Source: Flavobacteriales bacterium (lineage in GTDB: Bacteria; Bacteroidota; Bacteroidia; Flavobacteriales_C; GCA-002722245). Taken from it: 47,126 nucleotides of DNA. Under the pieces are notes generated by a model. It was given only the letters and a program-made list of their open reading frames with translations. It was not told the origin of the DNA and ran no database searches. The translations under genes and the position numbers were made by a program. The stretch's first letter is position 1. Each line of letters begins with the position of its first letter. The stretch is from the NCBI GenBank assembly GCA_023251075.1, contig JAHEZM010000029.1, positions 1-47,126 of the forward strand, given 5' to 3'. Of this stretch, positions 3,660 to 11,652 are shown piece after piece.

Positions 3660-4697
3660 CTATTTTTTTGCGTTCTCTAAAGTAAAATGAAAAACACTTC
3701 CTGATTTCAGAGAACTACGTACACCAATACTTTGCTGATGAGCTTCTACAATATGTTTAACGATAGCCAAACCCAAACCAGATCCACCCAGTTCTCTGCT
3801 TCTACTTTCATCTACACGATAAAATCTTTCGAACAAACGCGGTAAGTGTTTCTCATCAATCCCGATTCCATTATCCTCCACTTCCACCATTAATACACCA
3901 TCCATATCGGTGAACTGAATTTTAACCCAACCCCCTTGAATTCCATATTTCACTGCATTGATTACAAGATTAGTAAGTACTTGTCGGATTTTATCTTTAT
4001 CAGCACTCACCCAATATTCTCTTGGTTTTTCAACCTTTAGTTCAATGGCTTTTTTCTTTGCAGGAATCTCTGCCGAATGAATTACTTCTACAGCCAATTC
4101 AGTAAGATTAAAAACACTTTTATGTATGGCAATCTCACCTGAATCCAAACGAGAAATTTCATCTAAATCCTCAATGATACTAATCATACGCTCTGCGTTG
4201 TTAGCAGCTCTTTTCAAATAATCAACATTGATAGTTTCATCTTGTAATCCACCATCCAATAAGGTTAAAATGTATCCCTGTAAATTGAAGGCAGGGGTTT
4301 TCAATTCATGGGCTACATTTCCCAAAAATTCTTTTCTAAATTTCTCTTGTTTCTGAAGTGTAGCAATTTCTATTTTTTGCTTTTCGTTCCAACGTTCTAC
4401 TTTCTCTCCTGCAGCATCTAAAGGATTCTCTTCCCATGATTTTTGAATATCTGCCTCGAATAACTCATCAGATTTATGGGTAGTAATATTTTTATAAATC
4501 CCCTTAATTTTATCTACCACAAACTTTTTAATCAAGCTATACACTAAAGCATACACCACCATAAAAAACAACGCAGTGGAGATCAATTTCAACCACCATT
4601 CACTACCTTGAAAAAAAATAAAAACAAAAAATAAAAATAACGCAGAAATTAGCGTTGATAAAAGGAATACTAATCGTTTTGGATTAGAGAAGTTCAT
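3660..4697 (-). CDS. phoR: Phosphate-regulon-type sensor histidine kinase
   Basis: A 345-residue inner-membrane kinase. Two transmembrane helices (about 9-29 and 37-55) are separated by only a short loop, so there is almost no periplasmic sensor, as in PhoR. A linker follows, then the HisKA domain with the phosphoaccepting His130 in GNVAHELKTP. The HATPase domain has the N box NLVINAVKYG, G1 VEDNGIGID and G2 GGSGLGLAIV. It overlaps the upstream response-regulator gene by 14 bp. The pairing with a PhoB-like regulator and the divergent pst operon supports phosphate sensing, probably through Pst/PhoU. The symbol is assigned from context, since HisKA kinases are hard to tell apart by sequence alone. 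Confidence 0.85.
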   Translation of the reverse strand: MNFSNPKRLVFLLSTLISALFLFFVFIFFQGSEWWLKLISTALFFMVVYALVYSLIKKFVVDKIKGIYKNITTHKSDELFEADIQKSWEENPLDAAGEKVERWNEKQKIEIATLQKQEKFRKEFLGNVAHELKTPAFNLQGYILTLLDGGLQDETINVDYLKRAANNAERMISIIEDLDEISRLDSGEIAIHKSVFNLTELAVEVIHSAEIPAKKKAIELKVEKPREYWVSADKDKIRQVLTNLVINAVKYGIQGGWVKIQFTDMDGVLMVEVEDNGIGIDEKHLPRLFERFYRVDESRSRELGGSGLGLAIVKHIVEAHQQSIGVRSSLKSGSVFHFTLENAKK

Positions 4698-5382
4698 CGT
4701 TTTGTTCTTCGTATTTGTACCCTACACCTTTAACCGTAACAATATATTCTTCACCTACTTTTTCGCGCAATTTTCGAATATGAACATCAATCGTTCTATC
4801 TCCCACCACTACCTCTGTTCCCCAAACTTTATCTAAAATTTCATTGCGTAAAAAAACTTTTCCGGGTTCTGATAACAACAATTTCAACAATTCAAATTCT
4901 TTGCGGGGAAGAACAATTTCTTCTTCATTTTTAACAGCAAGATAACGTGAATTATCAATTTTAATAGTGGTTTCAGAAGCTTCTTCCTGTACGCCTCCAT
5001 TTTTCTTTCTTCTCAACAATGCTTTAATCCTACTCACTAAAACACGTGGACGAACAGGCTTTGAGATATAATCATCGGCACCTGCTTCTAAACCAGAAAT
5101 TTCTGAATAATCTTCATTTCTTGCGGTAAGAAAAGCAACCACTACATTTTTTAATTCGGGTTTTTCTTTGATCTGATAACAGGTTTCCATGCCATCCATT
5201 TCGGGCATCATTACATCTAACAAAATCAAATCGGGAATTACTTTTAAAGCCACCTCTAAACCAATTTTTCCATTCTCTGCTTTAAACACCTCAAAACCTT
5301 CCTTTTTAAGATTATAGGAAAGAAATTCAAGGATATCTCTATCATCATCTACTATCAATATTTTCTCGTTCGAGTTTTCCAT
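4684..5382 (-). CDS. phoB: PhoB/PhoP-type response regulator, OmpR family
   Basis: A 232-residue regulator. The receiver domain (1-120) has the acidic pocket VDDD, the phosphoacceptor Asp56 in LLDVMMP, the conserved Thr in FLTAR and the Lys in SKPVRPR. The C-terminal winged helix (about 140-228) has the OmpR/PhoB signature GDRTIDVHIRKLREKVG and VKGVGYKYE. It probably binds the TTAAC direct repeats at 5471-5498 and 5650-5676 in the divergent gap upstream. One tract lies about 90-115 bp before its own start, consistent with autoregulation. A perfect TATTTTTG element lies 11 nt before the ATG. The phosphate assignment rests on the pst neighbours. Confidence 0.88.
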   Translation of the reverse strand: MENSNEKILIVDDDRDILEFLSYNLKKEGFEVFKAENGKIGLEVALKVIPDLILLDVMMPEMDGMETCYQIKEKPELKNVVVAFLTARNEDYSEISGLEAGADDYISKPVRPRVLVSRIKALLRRKKNGGVQEEASETTIKIDNSRYLAVKNEEEIVLPRKEFELLKLLLSEPGKVFLRNEILDKVWGTEVVVGDRTIDVHIRKLREKVGEEYIVTVKGVGYKYEEQNDELL

Positions 5383-5393
5383 AAGTGGTTTTT

Positions 5394-5401
5394 CAAAAAT
5401 A
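5394..5401 (-). promoter_or_regulatory. phoB: -7 promoter element TATTTTTG of the phoB-phoR operon
   Basis: It matches TAnnTTTG exactly on the minus strand, 11 nt upstream of the phoB ATG. It sits about 70 bp from the TTAAC repeat tract at 5471-5498. Confidence 0.5.
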
Positions 5402-5470: not shown

Positions 5471-5498
5471 GTTAACTATTGCTTAACCTTTTGTTAAC
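5471..5498. promoter_or_regulatory. Putative Pho box 1: three TTAAC direct repeats at 11-bp spacing
   Basis: TTAAC occurs at 5472, 5483 and 5494, each exactly 11 bp (one helical turn) from the next. The first and third copies sit in palindromic GTTAAC, so the tract can be read in either direction. The core GTTAACTATTGCTTAAC matches box 2 in 16 of 17 bases. Eleven-bp repeat spacing is known for PhoB/PhoP-family operators. It lies upstream of phoB and, further away, of pstS. Confidence 0.72.
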
Positions 5499-5649
5499 CT
5501 TTATAAATCTACTCACTACAACTATTCATAAAATGCAAAACTTGTTAAAGCCATTTTTATTGGGGAAAATTAATTTCAAAAAAACAACACGTTATTTAAC
5601 ATTCTGTTTGTCATTAATTTACAAAATAATTACATACTTAAAGTGAGAG

Positions 5650-5676
5650 AGAACTAAAAGTTAACTATTACTTAAC
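5650..5676 (+). promoter_or_regulatory. Putative Pho box 2 upstream of pstS
   Basis: TTAAC occurs at 5661 and 5672, with a degenerate third unit (AGAAC) at 5650, again at exact 11-bp spacing. The core GTTAACTATTACTTAAC (5660-5676) differs from box 1 by one base. It ends 60 bp before the pstS ATG and 33 bp before a TATCTTCG -7-like element, a position suited to an activator site. Confidence 0.72.
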
Positions 5677-5708
5677 ATGAGATGAGAATAGAAGGTTGAT
5701 TTACTTCC

Positions 5709-5716
5709 TATCTTCG
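5709..5716 (+). promoter_or_regulatory. pstS: -7-like element TATCTTCG of the pst operon
   Basis: It has one mismatch to TAnnTTTG and lies 19 nt before the pstS ATG. No good -33 element is present, as expected for a promoter that needs an activator. Confidence 0.45.
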
Positions 5717-5735: not shown

Positions 5736-6689
5736 ATGAAAAAATTAATTTTATCAGCAATAACTCTAAGTACATTATTCGCATACTCATGCGGAGGTGA
5801 AGATTCAAAAAAAGAAGGAGAATCTACAGAACTTTCTGGAACGATTGTTATCGACGGTTCGAGCACTGTATTTCCAATTACTAAATTAGTTATTGAAGAT
5901 TTTACAGCAGAACACAACAAAGTAAAAATATCTGCAGCGGCAGGAGGAACGGGTAGCGGTTTTAAAAAATTAATCAGAAAAGAAATTGGAATCTGTGGTG
6001 CTTCTCGCCCTATTAAAGAATCTGAAGCTCACGAATGTGATAGTTTAGGTATTAAATATCAGGCTTTAGAAGTTGGGAAAGATGGATTATCAATTGTTGT
6101 AAATCCTCAAAATACTTGGTTAACCAGTATTACAGTAGCTGAATTAAAAATGATTTGGGAACCTGCTGCAGAAGGAAAAATTAAAAAATGGAATCAAATT
6201 CGTAAAGAGTGGCCTAACGAACCTATTAACCTTCATGGTGCAGGTCATGAATCAGGTACTTTTGAATATTTCACAGAGGTAATTAATGGTAAAAAGAATG
6301 CTTGCAGAACAGATTACAATGCAAGTGAAAACGACAACCAATTGGTTCAAGGTGTATCGGGCGATAAATATGCTTTAGGTTTTTTTGGATACGGATACTA
6401 CGAAACCAACAAAGCAAAATTAAAAATTGTTGCGGTTGATAATGGAAAAGGTGCTATTACTCCTAATGAAAAAACAATTATGGATGGAACTTATGCTCCA
6501 CTATCTCGTCCTCTGTTTATTTATGTAACTGCTGAAGAAGCAAAAAAACCAGAATCAGCTGCATTTGTTCAATTTTACTTAGACAATGCTCCAACTTTAG
6601 TGAAAGAAGCGCACTATGCTGCATTAACTGCCGATCAGTATAAAGCAGAAGCTGTAAAGTGGGATGCTTTTGTTAAAGGATTGAAATAA
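5736..6689 (+). CDS. pstS: Periplasmic phosphate-binding lipoprotein PstS
   Basis: A 317-residue substrate-binding protein that captures inorganic phosphate for the Pst ABC importer. A signal sequence ends at Cys19 in [10 protein letters not shown], so it is probably a lipoprotein. The mature part begins [14 protein letters not shown] and contains [11 protein letters not shown] and [13 protein letters not shown]. The DGSST and SGTFEYF loops are phosphate-contacting regions in PstS proteins. It is the first gene of the operon, preceded by Pho box 2, and is separated from pstC by a strong hairpin that probably lets it be made in excess of the membrane components. Confidence 0.94.
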
Positions 6690-6760: not shown

Positions 6761-7615
6761 ATGAAAAGAGTATTGATGATTTGCGCCATAATTACCGTTC
6801 TAACTACTGTTGGAATTGTTTGGGTGCTTTTCTCTGAGAGCTATACTTTCTTTCAACATGTTTCAATTTGGGACTTCCTTACCGATACCAAATGGAGTCC
6901 GGTTTCTACAGAAAAACATTTCGGTATTTTACCTCTTCTCTCCGGAACTTTACTTACCACTATCATTTCAATGGCCATTGCTGTACCTATGGGTGTAACC
7001 ATCGCTATTTATTTAAGTGAATACGCACCCAAAAAATTCAGATACTACATTAAACCAATGCTAGAAATTTTGGCTTCGGTACCCACCGTAGTGTATGGTT
7101 TTTTTGCCTTAACAGTAGTTACTCCGTTTTTACAAAATTATATTCCCAATCTTTCAGGATTCAATGCTTTAAGCGCCGGATTAGTAATGGGAATTATGAT
7201 CATTCCCATGATTTCCTCTTTAAGCGAAGATGCATTGTATGCTGTACCTAAATCATTACGAGAAGGAGCATATGGAATGGGATCAACTCGTTTACAAACT
7301 TCTTTTCAAGTAATTTTGCCCGCGGCTTCATCAGGTATTATCGTGTCGATCATTTTGGCTTTTGCCCGTGCCGTAGGAGAAACAATGATAGTAACCGTAG
7401 CTGCCGGAAATATGGCCAACTTAACTGCCGATCCACGAGAAACAGTTGCTACCATTACTGCATTCATCGTAAATATGTCGACTGGCGACGTACCTCAAGA
7501 CTCCATTGAATACCAAACTATTTTTGCTGCAGGAGTTACCTTATTTGTTTTCACTTTCATTTTAAATAGCATAAGCTTTCTCATTAAAAAAAGATTCCAA
7601 GAAAAGTATGACTAA
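6761..7615 (+). CDS. pstC: Phosphate ABC transporter permease PstC
   Basis: A 284-residue inner-membrane permease with about six transmembrane helices. An N-terminal helix (1-24) is followed by a periplasmic segment. The core contains FGILPLLSGTLLTT and the EAA-type cytoplasmic loop LREGAYGMGSTRLQTSFQVILP (here in parts: REGAYGMG, then FQVILPAA), which docks onto PstB. The AFARAVGETM motif is typical of PstC/PstA permeases. It overlaps pstA by 8 bp, which indicates translational coupling. Confidence 0.93.
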   Translation: MKRVLMICAIITVLTTVGIVWVLFSESYTFFQHVSIWDFLTDTKWSPVSTEKHFGILPLLSGTLLTTIISMAIAVPMGVTIAIYLSEYAPKKFRYYIKPMLEILASVPTVVYGFFALTVVTPFLQNYIPNLSGFNALSAGLVMGIMIIPMISSLSEDALYAVPKSLREGAYGMGSTRLQTSFQVILPAASSGIIVSIILAFARAVGETMIVTVAAGNMANLTADPRETVATITAFIVNMSTGDVPQDSIEYQTIFAAGVTLFVFTFILNSISFLIKKRFQEKYD

Positions 7616-8474
7616 CGCCGATAAAAATAGAATCAAAGACAAGATGTTTGGATACTTCGGTATGGCCTGCACCTTCTTTGGTATTTTTATGCTGCTTATT
7701 TTTCTGAGCGATATTGTAATTTCCGGATGGCAAAAAGTTGATTTTGATTTCTTAAGTAGTTTCCCTTCAAGCCGACCAAAAAAAGCAGGAATTTACCCTG
7801 CATTAATTGGAACATTATGGATTTTAGGTTTAACGGCAATCATCGCTTTACCTATTGGCATTGCTGCCGGAGTATACTTCGAAGAATATGCGAAAAAAAG
7901 TAAAATGGCTAATTTTTTAGAAATAAATTTGGCCAATTTAGCAGGTGTTCCATCCATTATTTATGGATTATTAGGACTTCAAATTTTTGTAAGAACATTA
8001 AATTTTGGCACAAGTATTTTATCGGGAGCCTGTACATTAGCTCTATTAATTCTACCCATTATTATAGTATCTACCAGAGAAGCATTGAAAGCTGTTCCCG
8101 ATAGCATTCGTCAGGCTTCTTATGGAATGGGCGCCAATACATGGCAAACCATTTGGCACCAGGTTTTACCTGCATCTTCAGGTGGAATTATTACAGGAAT
8201 TATATTAGCCATTTCACGCGCAATTGGTGAAACTGCGCCATTAATTGTTATTGGTGCCGCAACTTATATCACTTACATTCCTGAAGATGCAATGAGCAAC
8301 TTTACTGTTCTACCTATGCAAATTTACGATTGGGTAGGCATGCCTGAAACTCCAGATGGTGATTACAAAACAATATCATCAGCAGGAATTATCGTCCTTT
8401 TAATGATCACTTTTCTTTTGAATGGAATTGCTGTTTTTTTGCGCAACAGATGGCAGAAAAAAGTGAAGTGGTAA
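7608..8474 (+). CDS. pstA: Phosphate ABC transporter permease PstA
   Basis: A 288-residue partner of PstC with about six transmembrane helices. It has the PstA-like start of the permease core ([16 protein letters not shown]), the loop [22 protein letters not shown] (key parts RQASYGMG and [10 protein letters not shown]), and [16 protein letters not shown], which is diagnostic for PstA. A periplasmic segment with [15 protein letters not shown] is also characteristic. PstC and PstA together form the phosphate channel. It is followed directly by pstB. Confidence 0.93.
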
Positions 8475-8484
8475 AATATTGTTT

Positions 8485-9258
8485 ATGGAAAAATTAAGCA
8501 TTAAAGAAAAAAAATTAGAGGCCATTAATCTCGATGTTTATTACGGTCAGAAACAAGTTCTGAAAAATGTAAACATTGCTATTAAAGCCAATACAGTTAC
8601 CGCTTTTATTGGTCCTTCTGGCTGTGGTAAATCAACATTTCTGCGCACTTTCAATCGTATGAATGATTACGTTGAAGGGTTTAGAAAAGAAGGTGATATC
8701 ATTATTGATGGTAAAGATATTTACCAAAAAATGGTGCGTGTGGAAGAGCTTCGAAAAAAAGTAGGAATGGTATTTCAAAAACCAAATCCTTTTCCAAAAA
8801 CTATTTTTGAAAATGTTGCTTACGGATTAAAAATTCAAGGCATCAAAAATAAAAAGCTGATTGAAGAAACAGTTGAAAAATCTTTAAAACAGTCGGCATT
8901 GTGGGATGAAGTAAAAGATGATTTGAAAAAATCAGCGCTTTCGCTTTCGGGCGGACAGCAACAAAGATTGTGTATCGCAAGAGCTTTGGCTTTAGAACCA
9001 AGTATCTTGTTAATGGATGAACCTGCTTCTGCACTCGATCCAATTTCTACTTCGAAAATTGAAGATTTAATTTGGGAGTTAAAAGAAAAATATACCATCG
9101 TTATTGTTACGCACAATATGCAACAAGCAGGTAGAATTAGCGATAACACCGCGTTTTTCTACATGGGTGATTTGGTAGAATACGATGAAACAAAAACTAT
9201 TTTCACCAATCCAAAACAAGAAAGAACTCAGAATTACATCACTGGTCGTTTTGGTTAA
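8485..9258 (+). CDS. pstB: Phosphate ABC transporter ATPase PstB
   Basis: A 257-residue ATPase that powers the Pst importer. Walker A is GPSGCGKST (43-51), followed by the PstB-typical [15 protein letters not shown]. The Q-loop is [12 protein letters not shown], the ABC signature [15 protein letters not shown], Walker [14 protein letters not shown], and the switch His is in VTHNMQQA. I chose the ATG at 8485 over the in-frame TTG at 8479, because the latter adds only two residues and leaves little room after the pstA stop. Fourth gene of the operon. Confidence 0.94.
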
Positions 9259-9265
9259 ACGTATA

Positions 9266-9294
9266 GTTAACATTGAACATTAAACATTGAACTA
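9266..9294 (+). repeat. Four heptameric near-repeats between pstB and phoU
   Basis: Four consecutive 7-bp units read TAACAT-, TGAACAT, TAAACAT and TGAACTA, filling most of the 42-bp gap. The spacing is 7 bp, not 11, so it is unlike the Pho boxes. It may be chance low-complexity sequence or an RNA-level element ahead of phoU. Confidence 0.45.
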
Positions 9295-9300
9295 ATTTAT

Positions 9301-9963
9301 ATGTCACATTTAGCAGCAGAATTACAACATCTTAAAGACGAGGTTTTTCAACTTCTTCAGTTGGTGCATTCTCAAATCGAGAAAAGTAAAGAGGCTATCT
9401 CTAAAAGCGATCGCGATTTGGCAAGTCATGTGGTAGCAAATGATAAAAGAGTAAATGCATCAGAATTAACTATCGACCGCGATTGTGAAAATATTTTAGC
9501 GCTTTACAATCCTGTGGCCATCGATTTACGTTTTGTGTTGGCGTGTATCAAAATGAATCACAGTTTGGAAAGAATTGGCGATAACGCTGAGGGTTTGGCA
9601 ATGTATGTAAATCATGCTCCAGGCCCATTTCCTCAAGATATTTTAGAGGTATTCAATATTATGCCTGCTTTCGACAGGGTATTGGAAATGTTCTCTCTGA
9701 TCATGGATTCCTACCGCCAGGAAGACCCAACCTTGGCCAGAAAAGTATTCAATTTAGATGAATTGCTAAATGAATACAACAGAAAAGCAACCAAAATAGC
9801 TATTGAGAAAATGAAATCTAATCCTGAAAAAGCAGAAGAGATTTTATACATCATGGGAGCCATGAGAAAGATTGAAAGAATGGGTGACCTTACTAAAAAT
9901 ATGGCCGAAGAAATTATTTTCTACATCGAAGCAAAAGTTTTACGACACATAAAAAAACAATAA
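9301..9963 (+). CDS. phoU: Phosphate uptake regulator PhoU
   Basis: A 220-residue all-helical protein with two tandem three-helix PhoU domains. Each carries the metal-cluster signature: SLERIGDNAEGLA around residue 90 and KIERMGDLTKNMAEEI around residue 193. PhoU connects Pst activity with PhoR, keeping the Pho response off when phosphate is plentiful. It starts with ATG at 9301 after the heptamer repeats and is followed after 3 bp by the Na/Pi cotransporter, so the operon continues. Confidence 0.93.
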   Translation: MSHLAAELQHLKDEVFQLLQLVHSQIEKSKEAISKSDRDLASHVVANDKRVNASELTIDRDCENILALYNPVAIDLRFVLACIKMNHSLERIGDNAEGLAMYVNHAPGPFPQDILEVFNIMPAFDRVLEMFSLIMDSYRQEDPTLARKVFNLDELLNEYNRKATKIAIEKMKSNPEKAEEILYIMGAMRKIERMGDLTKNMAEEIIFYIEAKVLRHIKKQ

Positions 9964-9966
9964 ACA

Positions 9967-11652
9967 TTGAATCCAGAATTATATAATCTCCTTTATCTCT
10001 TAGGCTCGTTAGCTTTTCTTCTTTTTGGATTGAAAATGATGAGCGAAGCCGTTCAAAAAGTATTAGGTGACAACTTAGGAAAAATGCTGAGTTCAACCAC
10101 TGAAAATCGTTTTACCGGAGTTTTTAAAGGAATGTTTACCACTTCATTGATTCAATCTTCATCGGCTACTATAGTGGTAACTGTAAGCTTGGTAAATGCA
10201 GGTATTCTTACTTTATTACAATCATCAAGTATTATTTTAGGAGCTAACATTGGTACCACTATCACTTCCTGGTTGGTAGCTACCATAGGTTTCAAAACAG
10301 ATATTTATTATGCTGCTTTACCACTTATTGCTCTGGGTGTTCCTTTCCTCTTTGCGAAAAAGAAAAAAGTAAAATTCGTAGGAGAAATCATTATTGGTTT
10401 TGCTATTCTTTTTTGGGGATTAGAAATTTTAAAAGATTGTGTTTTTGAATTGCGTCAAAGCAGAGTACTTGAATTTGTAATGAGTAATAACGATCCTTCA
10501 TTTTTAAATGAAGTTTCCTTTGTGTTAATCGGTGCTGTACTTTCTTTTCTTTTACAATCATCTGCGGCAGCAATAGCCTTTACTCAAACTTTATGTTTCG
10601 CAGGAATAATGCCTATTGAAAGTGCGCTGGCAATGGTGCTGGGGCAAAACATAGGCTCTACCATCAATGCAGAAATTGCTGCTTATACCGGTAATGTTCA
10701 TGCCAAAAGAGCTGCACGAATTCACTCTTTATTTAATTTAATAAGTATGGTTTGGATGATTCTTTTATTAAGTGTCATTACTCCACAAATTAATTTTATT
10801 GCTGAAAATATTTTTAATCAGGATAGCATTTACACTAGCAGTGGCGCACCAATGGGCATTGCTGTTTTTCACACTACTTACAATGTGATCAATGTTTTAA
10901 TTATGATTGGTTTGTTGCCTTATTTGGTTAAACTGGCCACTCAATCGGTAAAATCAAAAGGCAATGCCGATGAAGAATATCACCTTGAGTTCATGAACAG
11001 TGGCCTAATGACTTCGCCTGAAATATCCATCACCGAAGCAAAAAAAGAAATGGTGAAATTTGCAGAATTAACCAAGTCGATGAATGCCACTTTTAGAAAT
11101 TTATTAAAAGAACAAGAAAACAATAATTTCGAAGAACTCATTTTGGAAATGAGAAAAAGAGAAGATCTCACCGATAACATGCAAGAAGAAATTGCCAACT
11201 TCTTAACTAAAGTTTCGCAAGGAGAACTTACCGAAGAAAATTCTATTTGTATTCGACGACTCATTGGAATGGTAGGTGATATGGAACAAGTGGGTGATAT
11301 TTATTACGCCAACGCTCTCATTATGGAGCGCAAAAAAGAAAATAAAGTTTGGTTCATTCAAGAACAAAGAGATATCTTAAATCAAATGTTGGATAAGCTA
11401 GATAAAGCTTTTGAGATTTTAATTCAAAACTTAAAAAGCGAATACAACGATGTAACCATAAGTGAAGCAAAAAAAATTGAAGAAGAAATTGATGCCCTTC
11501 GCGACAAAGCACAAGAACAACATTTAGATAGTATGGAGAATGGTGCTTACAGCTTTAAAAGCGGATTGTTTTACAAAGACCTTTACGCCAACTTCGAACG
11601 TGTGGGCGATTATGTAATGAAGGTGAATGAGGTGATTGCGGAGAGGGATTAG
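9967..11652 (+). CDS. Na+/phosphate cotransporter with C-terminal PhoU domain, TTG start
   Basis: A 561-residue NptA/PF02690-type symporter. Two inverted repeats carry the QSS motifs: SLIQSSSATIVV with GANIGTT, and FLLQSSAAAIAF with GQNIGST. These are the substrate-binding hairpins of the NaPi-II fold. After about residue 345 comes a cytoplasmic helical region with PhoU-like signatures (MVGDMEQVGDIYYANAL near 440, NFERVGDYVMKV near 545). The start is TTG at 9967, three bases after the phoU stop. It probably serves as a lower-affinity phosphate importer or regulator co-expressed with Pst. Transport direction and affinity are inferred from the family. Confidence 0.9.
   Translation: MNPELYNLLYLLGSLAFLLFGLKMMSEAVQKVLGDNLGKMLSSTTENRFTGVFKGMFTTSLIQSSSATIVVTVSLVNAGILTLLQSSSIILGANIGTTITSWLVATIGFKTDIYYAALPLIALGVPFLFAKKKKVKFVGEIIIGFAILFWGLEILKDCVFELRQSRVLEFVMSNNDPSFLNEVSFVLIGAVLSFLLQSSAAAIAFTQTLCFAGIMPIESALAMVLGQNIGSTINAEIAAYTGNVHAKRAARIHSLFNLISMVWMILLLSVITPQINFIAENIFNQDSIYTSSGAPMGIAVFHTTYNVINVLIMIGLLPYLVKLATQSVKSKGNADEEYHLEFMNSGLMTSPEISITEAKKEMVKFAELTKSMNATFRNLLKEQENNNFEELILEMRKREDLTDNMQEEIANFLTKVSQGELTEENSICIRRLIGMVGDMEQVGDIYYANALIMERKKENKVWFIQEQRDILNQMLDKLDKAFEILIQNLKSEYNDVTISEAKKIEEEIDALRDKAQEQHLDSMENGAYSFKSGLFYKDLYANFERVGDYVMKVNEVIAERD

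Follow-up and report, generated by a model that had tools for sequence, protein, structure and literature searches.

Two arrays of TTAAC direct repeats, located between the divergent phoBR genes and the pst operon of a Flavobacteriales bacterium, are very probably PhoB-type Pho boxes. The downstream array (box 2) would drive pstS, and the upstream array (box 1) would be the operator of a lost porin gene, now a relic or an accessory site. The arrays were analyzed in the window, by which we mean the whole stretch of DNA under study (47,126 nucleotides), and were compared with relatives from the same genus, those with names being uncultured Flavobacteriales/Bacteroidetes genomes. A preliminary description of the sequence had suggested that the arrays are the Pho boxes of this lineage, and this proposal is strongly supported by conservation, exact spacing, and promoter phasing.

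Table 1. Features of the phoBR–pst region, in window coordinates
Feature	Position	Strand	Remarks
phoR, sensor histidine kinase	3660..4697	-	PF00512 + PF02518
phoB, OmpR/PhoB-family response regulator	4684..5382	-	PF00072 + PF00486; presumed binder
TATTTTTG, −7 box of divergent phoB promoter	5394..5401	-	conserved in five genomes
Box 1	5471..5498	+	three tandem 11-bp units, TTAAC at 5472, 5483, 5494
Scar where siblings carry ~405-aa Porin_O_P gene	5499..5652	.	no significant remnant
Box 2	5660..5677	+	two tandem units, TTAAC at 5661, 5672; putative pstS operator
TATCTTCG, −7 box (TAnnTTTG class) of pstS promoter	5709..5716	+	32 bp after second repeat
pstS, phosphate-binding protein	5736..6689	+	PF12849; orthologues found
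pstC, pstA (two permease genes), pstB, phoU	6761..9963	+	operon 3′ of box 2
Na/Pi cotransporter with PhoU domain	9967..11652	+	PF02690 + PF01895

Results

Two TTAAC arrays between phoBR and pst

The TTAAC positions, the 11-bp spacing, and the common forward orientation are as previously described (Table 1), and the 17-bp cores of the two boxes, GTTAACTATTGCTTAAC and GTTAACTATTACTTAAC, are identical at 16 of 17 positions. Both arrays therefore have the at least two direct repeats of an 11-bp period that characterize a Pho box. In box 1, the second of the three units matches CTTAACCT exactly, and the third is GTTAACCT. A degenerate third copy (AGAAC) had also been assigned to box 2 at 5650. However, this position is not conserved among siblings, where it is occupied by ACTAT or ACTAC in the three porin-bearing genomes (porin stop-codon region) and by AGCTT in genome G006, so that box 2 is best regarded as two repeats. 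In the operon downstream, PF00528 marks the first permease and PF01895 marks phoU, and pstA and pstB were assigned by position and sequence.

There is a single exact three-copy array in the 3.28-Mb genome. An argument from rarity was dropped for the two-copy pattern, as exact TTAAC-N6-TTAAC has 18 matches in the genome compared to 45 for the reversed control pattern and shows no genome-wide enrichment. The significance of the pattern rests instead on position and conservation. Among the remaining exact sites that were assigned a downstream gene, none lies before an obvious phosphate gene.

Conservation upstream of pstS and phoB-type genes

In 5/5 genus genomes, TTAAC-N6-TTAAC begins 74 or 75 bp upstream of the pstS start codon and is kept there although the upstream neighbor gene differs, which supports the earlier suggestion that box 2 acts on pstS. 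A total of 73 pstS upstream regions was then compared, taken from the genus, the family, sampled phylum genomes, and named loci including Nitrospirota; these regions are not fully independent because relatives are included. The exact pattern was found within 300 bp of pstS in 17 of the 73 (dinucleotide shuffles: mean 0.05, maximum 1), and the pattern with up to one mismatch in 38 (dinucleotide shuffles: mean 1.6, maximum 5). When spacers of 3 to 13 bases were compared, only a spacer of 6 stood out, with 38 regions and the next best at 8. Likewise, exact TTAAC pairs in the pstS regions lay 11 bp apart in 19 instances and at any other distance in no more than two. The unit consensus across the pst boxes is [CG]TTAACATT. 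Approximately half of the sampled pstS genes (35 regions) are without a clear box within 300 bp, and in 14 of these 35 a degenerate array of two units is present at p ≤ 0.05.

Class-wide, a box within one mismatch precedes phoB-type regulator genes in 14/28 cases, and control rplT promoters have it in 0/30. The repeat had been expected to recur, in the manner of a Pho box upstream of phosphate-starvation genes, before orthologous pst, pho, and phosphatase genes. This was borne out, at the exact spacing, by enrichment upstream of pstS, the genus porin, and phoB-type genes, but not at the phosphatase gene examined, phoX, whose promoters in the phylum showed no enrichment (1/18). Manganitrophus-type Nitrospirota pstS promoters (L068, L071) carry a similar three-unit array, GTAAC/TTAAC/TTAAC, indicating that the code extends beyond Bacteroidota.

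Phasing of the boxes to the −7 element

The primary sigma factor of Bacteroidota recognizes a −7 box with the sequence TAnnTTTG (PMC9723704). We measured the offset from the end of the second repeat of a pair to the −7 element downstream. In 5/5 genus members, TAT[CT]TTCG begins exactly 32 bp past the second repeat of the pst box. Among 31 non-redundant pstS promoters, in which a −7 match was defined as 5-of-6 to TAnnTTTG, the element occurred six times at offset 21, six times at offset 32, and at most twice at any other offset; the gap between the two preferred offsets equals one repeat unit. In an independent set of phoB-type promoters, the −7 box lay at 21 (six promoters), 22 (three), and 32 (two). 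Additionally, when the five genus genomes were scanned for a box combined with a −7 element, zero-mismatch matches came only from the pst and porin promoters. The boxes thus have the fixed place beside a core promoter that is expected of a Pho box, 21 or 32 bp before TAnnTTTG. This arrangement is the geometry of an activator beside RNA polymerase, and from it we infer the mechanism of activation.

Box 1 and the porin gene of sibling genomes

In three siblings (G007, G008, and G009), the phoB–pstS interval is ~1.46 kb long and harbors a ~405-aa gene between box 1 and box 2. The product of the G008 gene was assigned to Porin_O_P (PF07396, phosphate-selective porin), and the G007 and G009 products share 59% and 88% identity with it, respectively. 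The porin promoter in all three contains a three-repeat box that is almost identical to box 1 and has the same place relative to phoB, followed 21–22 bp after the third repeat by a −7 element, TAGATTTG or TACATTTG, and box 2 lies beyond the end of the porin reading frame. The window retains the two boxes and the flanking sequence on either side, with 353 bp in place of 1.46 kb. No homologue of the sibling porin was detected anywhere in the window's genome, no phased −7 box follows box 1 in the window, and a search for porin remnants in 5499–5660 gave alignment scores no better than shuffles. A suggestive ATG..AAAACTTGTTAA at 5533 was considered as a porin remnant and rejected, since its alignment was likewise no better than shuffles. 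With the porin and the −7 element of box 1 both lost in the window, box 1 has probably been left behind as the operator of a deleted porin gene and would be a relic or have no more than an accessory role.

The G006 genome is also without the porin at the phoB–pstS place and has one box there, 69 bp from the phoB −7 box like box 1 of the window and 75 bp from pstS like box 2. This single box (L129, 4275–4434) looks as if the left part of box 1 had been joined to the right part of box 2. We hypothesize that a deletion between the two boxes would yield such an arrangement. A second Porin_O_P gene is present elsewhere in G006 behind its own three-repeat box.

A paralogous PhoB-type regulator

Alignment of the recognition helix gives RTIDVHIRKLR in the window PhoB and RTVDVHIRRLR in Escherichia coli PhoB. 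The genome encodes a second PhoB-type regulator (G000:C21:21635) that is 58% identical to the window PhoB and shares its recognition-helix residues RTIDVHIRKLREK. This paralogue adjoins a TonB-dependent receptor, and in five genomes both promoters have phased arrays that are more degenerate and contain two to four units. The TonB-receptor promoter (L197, G000:C21:12000-27000, site at 4553) has a phased three-unit TTAAC/GTAAC/CTAAC site in G000, G008, and G009 and a related two-unit site in G006 and G007, and the paralogue's own promoter has up to four units. In Flavobacterium johnsoniae, a low-phosphate-induced phoB and TonB receptor occur together with oprP in one cluster (PMC8115612), which makes a role in phosphate plausible for the paralogue locus. 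That cluster resembles the porin–phoBR and paralogue–TonB receptor clusters found here; oprP of F. johnsoniae was not induced, and the text of the paper gives no binding motif (PMC8115612). The window PhoB is presumed to be the cognate regulator of the boxes, with the shared recognition helix of the paralogue counting against it.

Related arrays were also observed at other loci. A one-mismatch box, TTAATATTGGCTTAAC, with a −7 box 21 bp on, precedes exbB in an exbB-exbD-exbD-tonB operon that includes a phosphate-binding-like protein (G000:C11:72467-72511), and the same box is found before exbB in G008. Between a photolyase-like gene and one whose product has no Pfam match, an array of four TTAAC-like units (L204, ~2514–2560; G009:C21) is bordered by −7 boxes on either side. 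A further site, TTAACCATTACTTAACATT, is conserved between G007 (L202, 1684; G007:C151), where it lies 3′ of an ftsZ-like gene, and G006 (G006:C34:38248), and it has a −7-like box in phase.

Alternative assignments of the boxes

It is possible, although we doubt it, that the boxes belong mainly to the paralogous regulator or to both regulators, as RTIDVHIRKLREK is common to the two proteins and the paralogue's own and TonB-receptor promoters bear phased arrays of the same kind. However, the pst box adjoins the phoBR pair in the window and in siblings, whereas the paralogue is linked to the TonB receptor and not to pst, and its own boxes are more TTAAT/GTAAT-like. Box 1 had further been suggested to serve phoB, and as a working autoregulatory operator, divergently shared with pst, it would lie ~90 bp from the start codon of phoB in the window (84–90 bp in siblings). 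Its palindromic GTTAAC units allow it to be read on the reverse strand with one mismatch, and phoB-type genes elsewhere in the class have boxes. Nevertheless, those boxes are co-oriented with their genes and mostly 21–22 bp from the −7 element, whereas box 1 is inverted and separated from the phoB −7 box by a gap that varies between 65 and 69 bp with no common phase, and its counterpart in siblings is the porin promoter. We consider a working phoB operator improbable for these reasons; phoB may be autoregulated through box 1, but the anatomy does not suggest it.

A much more remote candidate is an OmpR-family regulator without a connection to phosphate, ArcA-like or other. ArcA of E. coli likewise recognizes direct repeats with a matching 11-bp spacing (PMC3798270), and the Riemerella PhoP motif was called ArcA-like (PMC9603813). 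Against such a regulator, the sites recur from genome to genome at phosphate genes (pst and Porin_O_P) and at phoB-type genes, and they keep phase with the core promoter. A chance origin of the repeats, in an intergenic region that is AT-rich, would agree with the 18 TTAAC pairs of the genome, a number at or below the background rate. This explanation is refuted by conservation, exact spacing, and promoter phasing over dozens of genomes, and its probability is close to nil.

Discussion

We favor a model in which a PhoB-type regulator would bind the arrays head-to-tail, with one subunit on each 11-bp unit ([CG]TTAACATT). Upon phosphate starvation, PhoR would phosphorylate PhoB, and phosphorylated PhoB would occupy box 2, just upstream of the core promoter. 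From there, it could recruit RNA polymerase carrying the Bacteroidota primary sigma factor to TATCTTCG at 5709, and this recruitment would turn on pstS together with the genes that follow. Box 1, with its three repeats, would have played the same part for an ancestral gene encoding a phosphate-selective porin; it would now be a relic or, at most, an additional place where PhoB loads for the pst or phoB promoters. PhoB binding and the response to phosphate are read here from sequence features. In Bacteroides and Flavobacterium, PhoB-dependent phosphate responses have been measured. PhoB from Bacteroides fragilis binds a pst promoter fragment of 512 bp, in which the site is unmapped (PMC3547664). 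No mapped operator at a Bacteroidota pst promoter was found in a literature search that had most subscription papers outside its reach.

The Bacillus PhoP repeat, TTAACA, has a similar core and spacing and comes from a phylogenetically distant organism. It had been named as a better parallel than the E. coli Pho box; the cyanobacterial unit CTTAACCT (PMC1906773) and the Riemerella core TTTAACA (PMC9603813) are closer, and a TTAAC-type box is thus already known from the cyanobacterial box and from the Riemerella DAP-seq motif. The closest known system is the cyanobacterial SphR/PhoB Pho box, composed of CTTAACCT and a 3-bp linker, which has in common with the window the TTAAC core, the 11-bp period, the two or three tandem units, and the place upstream of pst (PMC1906773). 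Each of its TTAA cores was needed for PhoB binding in EMSA (PMC11126600). The boxes described here differ by the downstream flank, ATT rather than CT, in most pst units and by the Bacteroidota −7 promoter; phylum-wide, most pst units are TTAACATT compared to the cyanobacterial-type CTTAACCT.

Within the same phylum, PhoP of Riemerella anatipestifer is a PhoR-partnered OmpR-family regulator with a TTAACA core. DAP-seq gave the core TTTAACA from a very broad set of 583 peaks, binding was seen in EMSA, and neither a pst-centered operator nor −7 phasing is described in the accessible part of that report (PMC9603813). Deletion of phoPR in Riemerella raised pstS expression (PMC5399024), which fits poorly with simple activation there. 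The E. coli Pho box (CTGTCAT; TGTCA units with an 11-bp period) is likewise built from tandem 11-bp direct repeats, on which PhoB is bound head-to-tail beside the core promoter (PMC4415409). Unlike in E. coli, the core is TTAAC and not TGTCA in all genus members, and the clearest change in the aligned recognition-helix core is K for R.

Promoter phasing and the history of porin loss are additions to the first reading of this sequence. Taken together, we lean, with some reservation, toward a single Bacteroidota Pho-box code, in which TTAACATT is repeated in tandem every 11 bp at a quantized 21 or 32 bp from the −7 element, and in which deletion of a porin gene has stranded one operator in the window. 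The occurrence of TTAAC-type boxes in Cyanobacteria, Bacteroidota, and Nitrospirota suggests that the TGTCA core of E. coli is not the general form. As the units lie at quantized distances from an unusual −7 element, PhoB would activate a divergent sigma factor by a defined geometry, and the spacing between box and −7 element offers a geometry of activation that can be tested for the Bacteroidota sigma factor. A defined box and promoter spacing would make phosphate regulons predictable in a phylum that is abundant in the gut, in soil, and in the sea.
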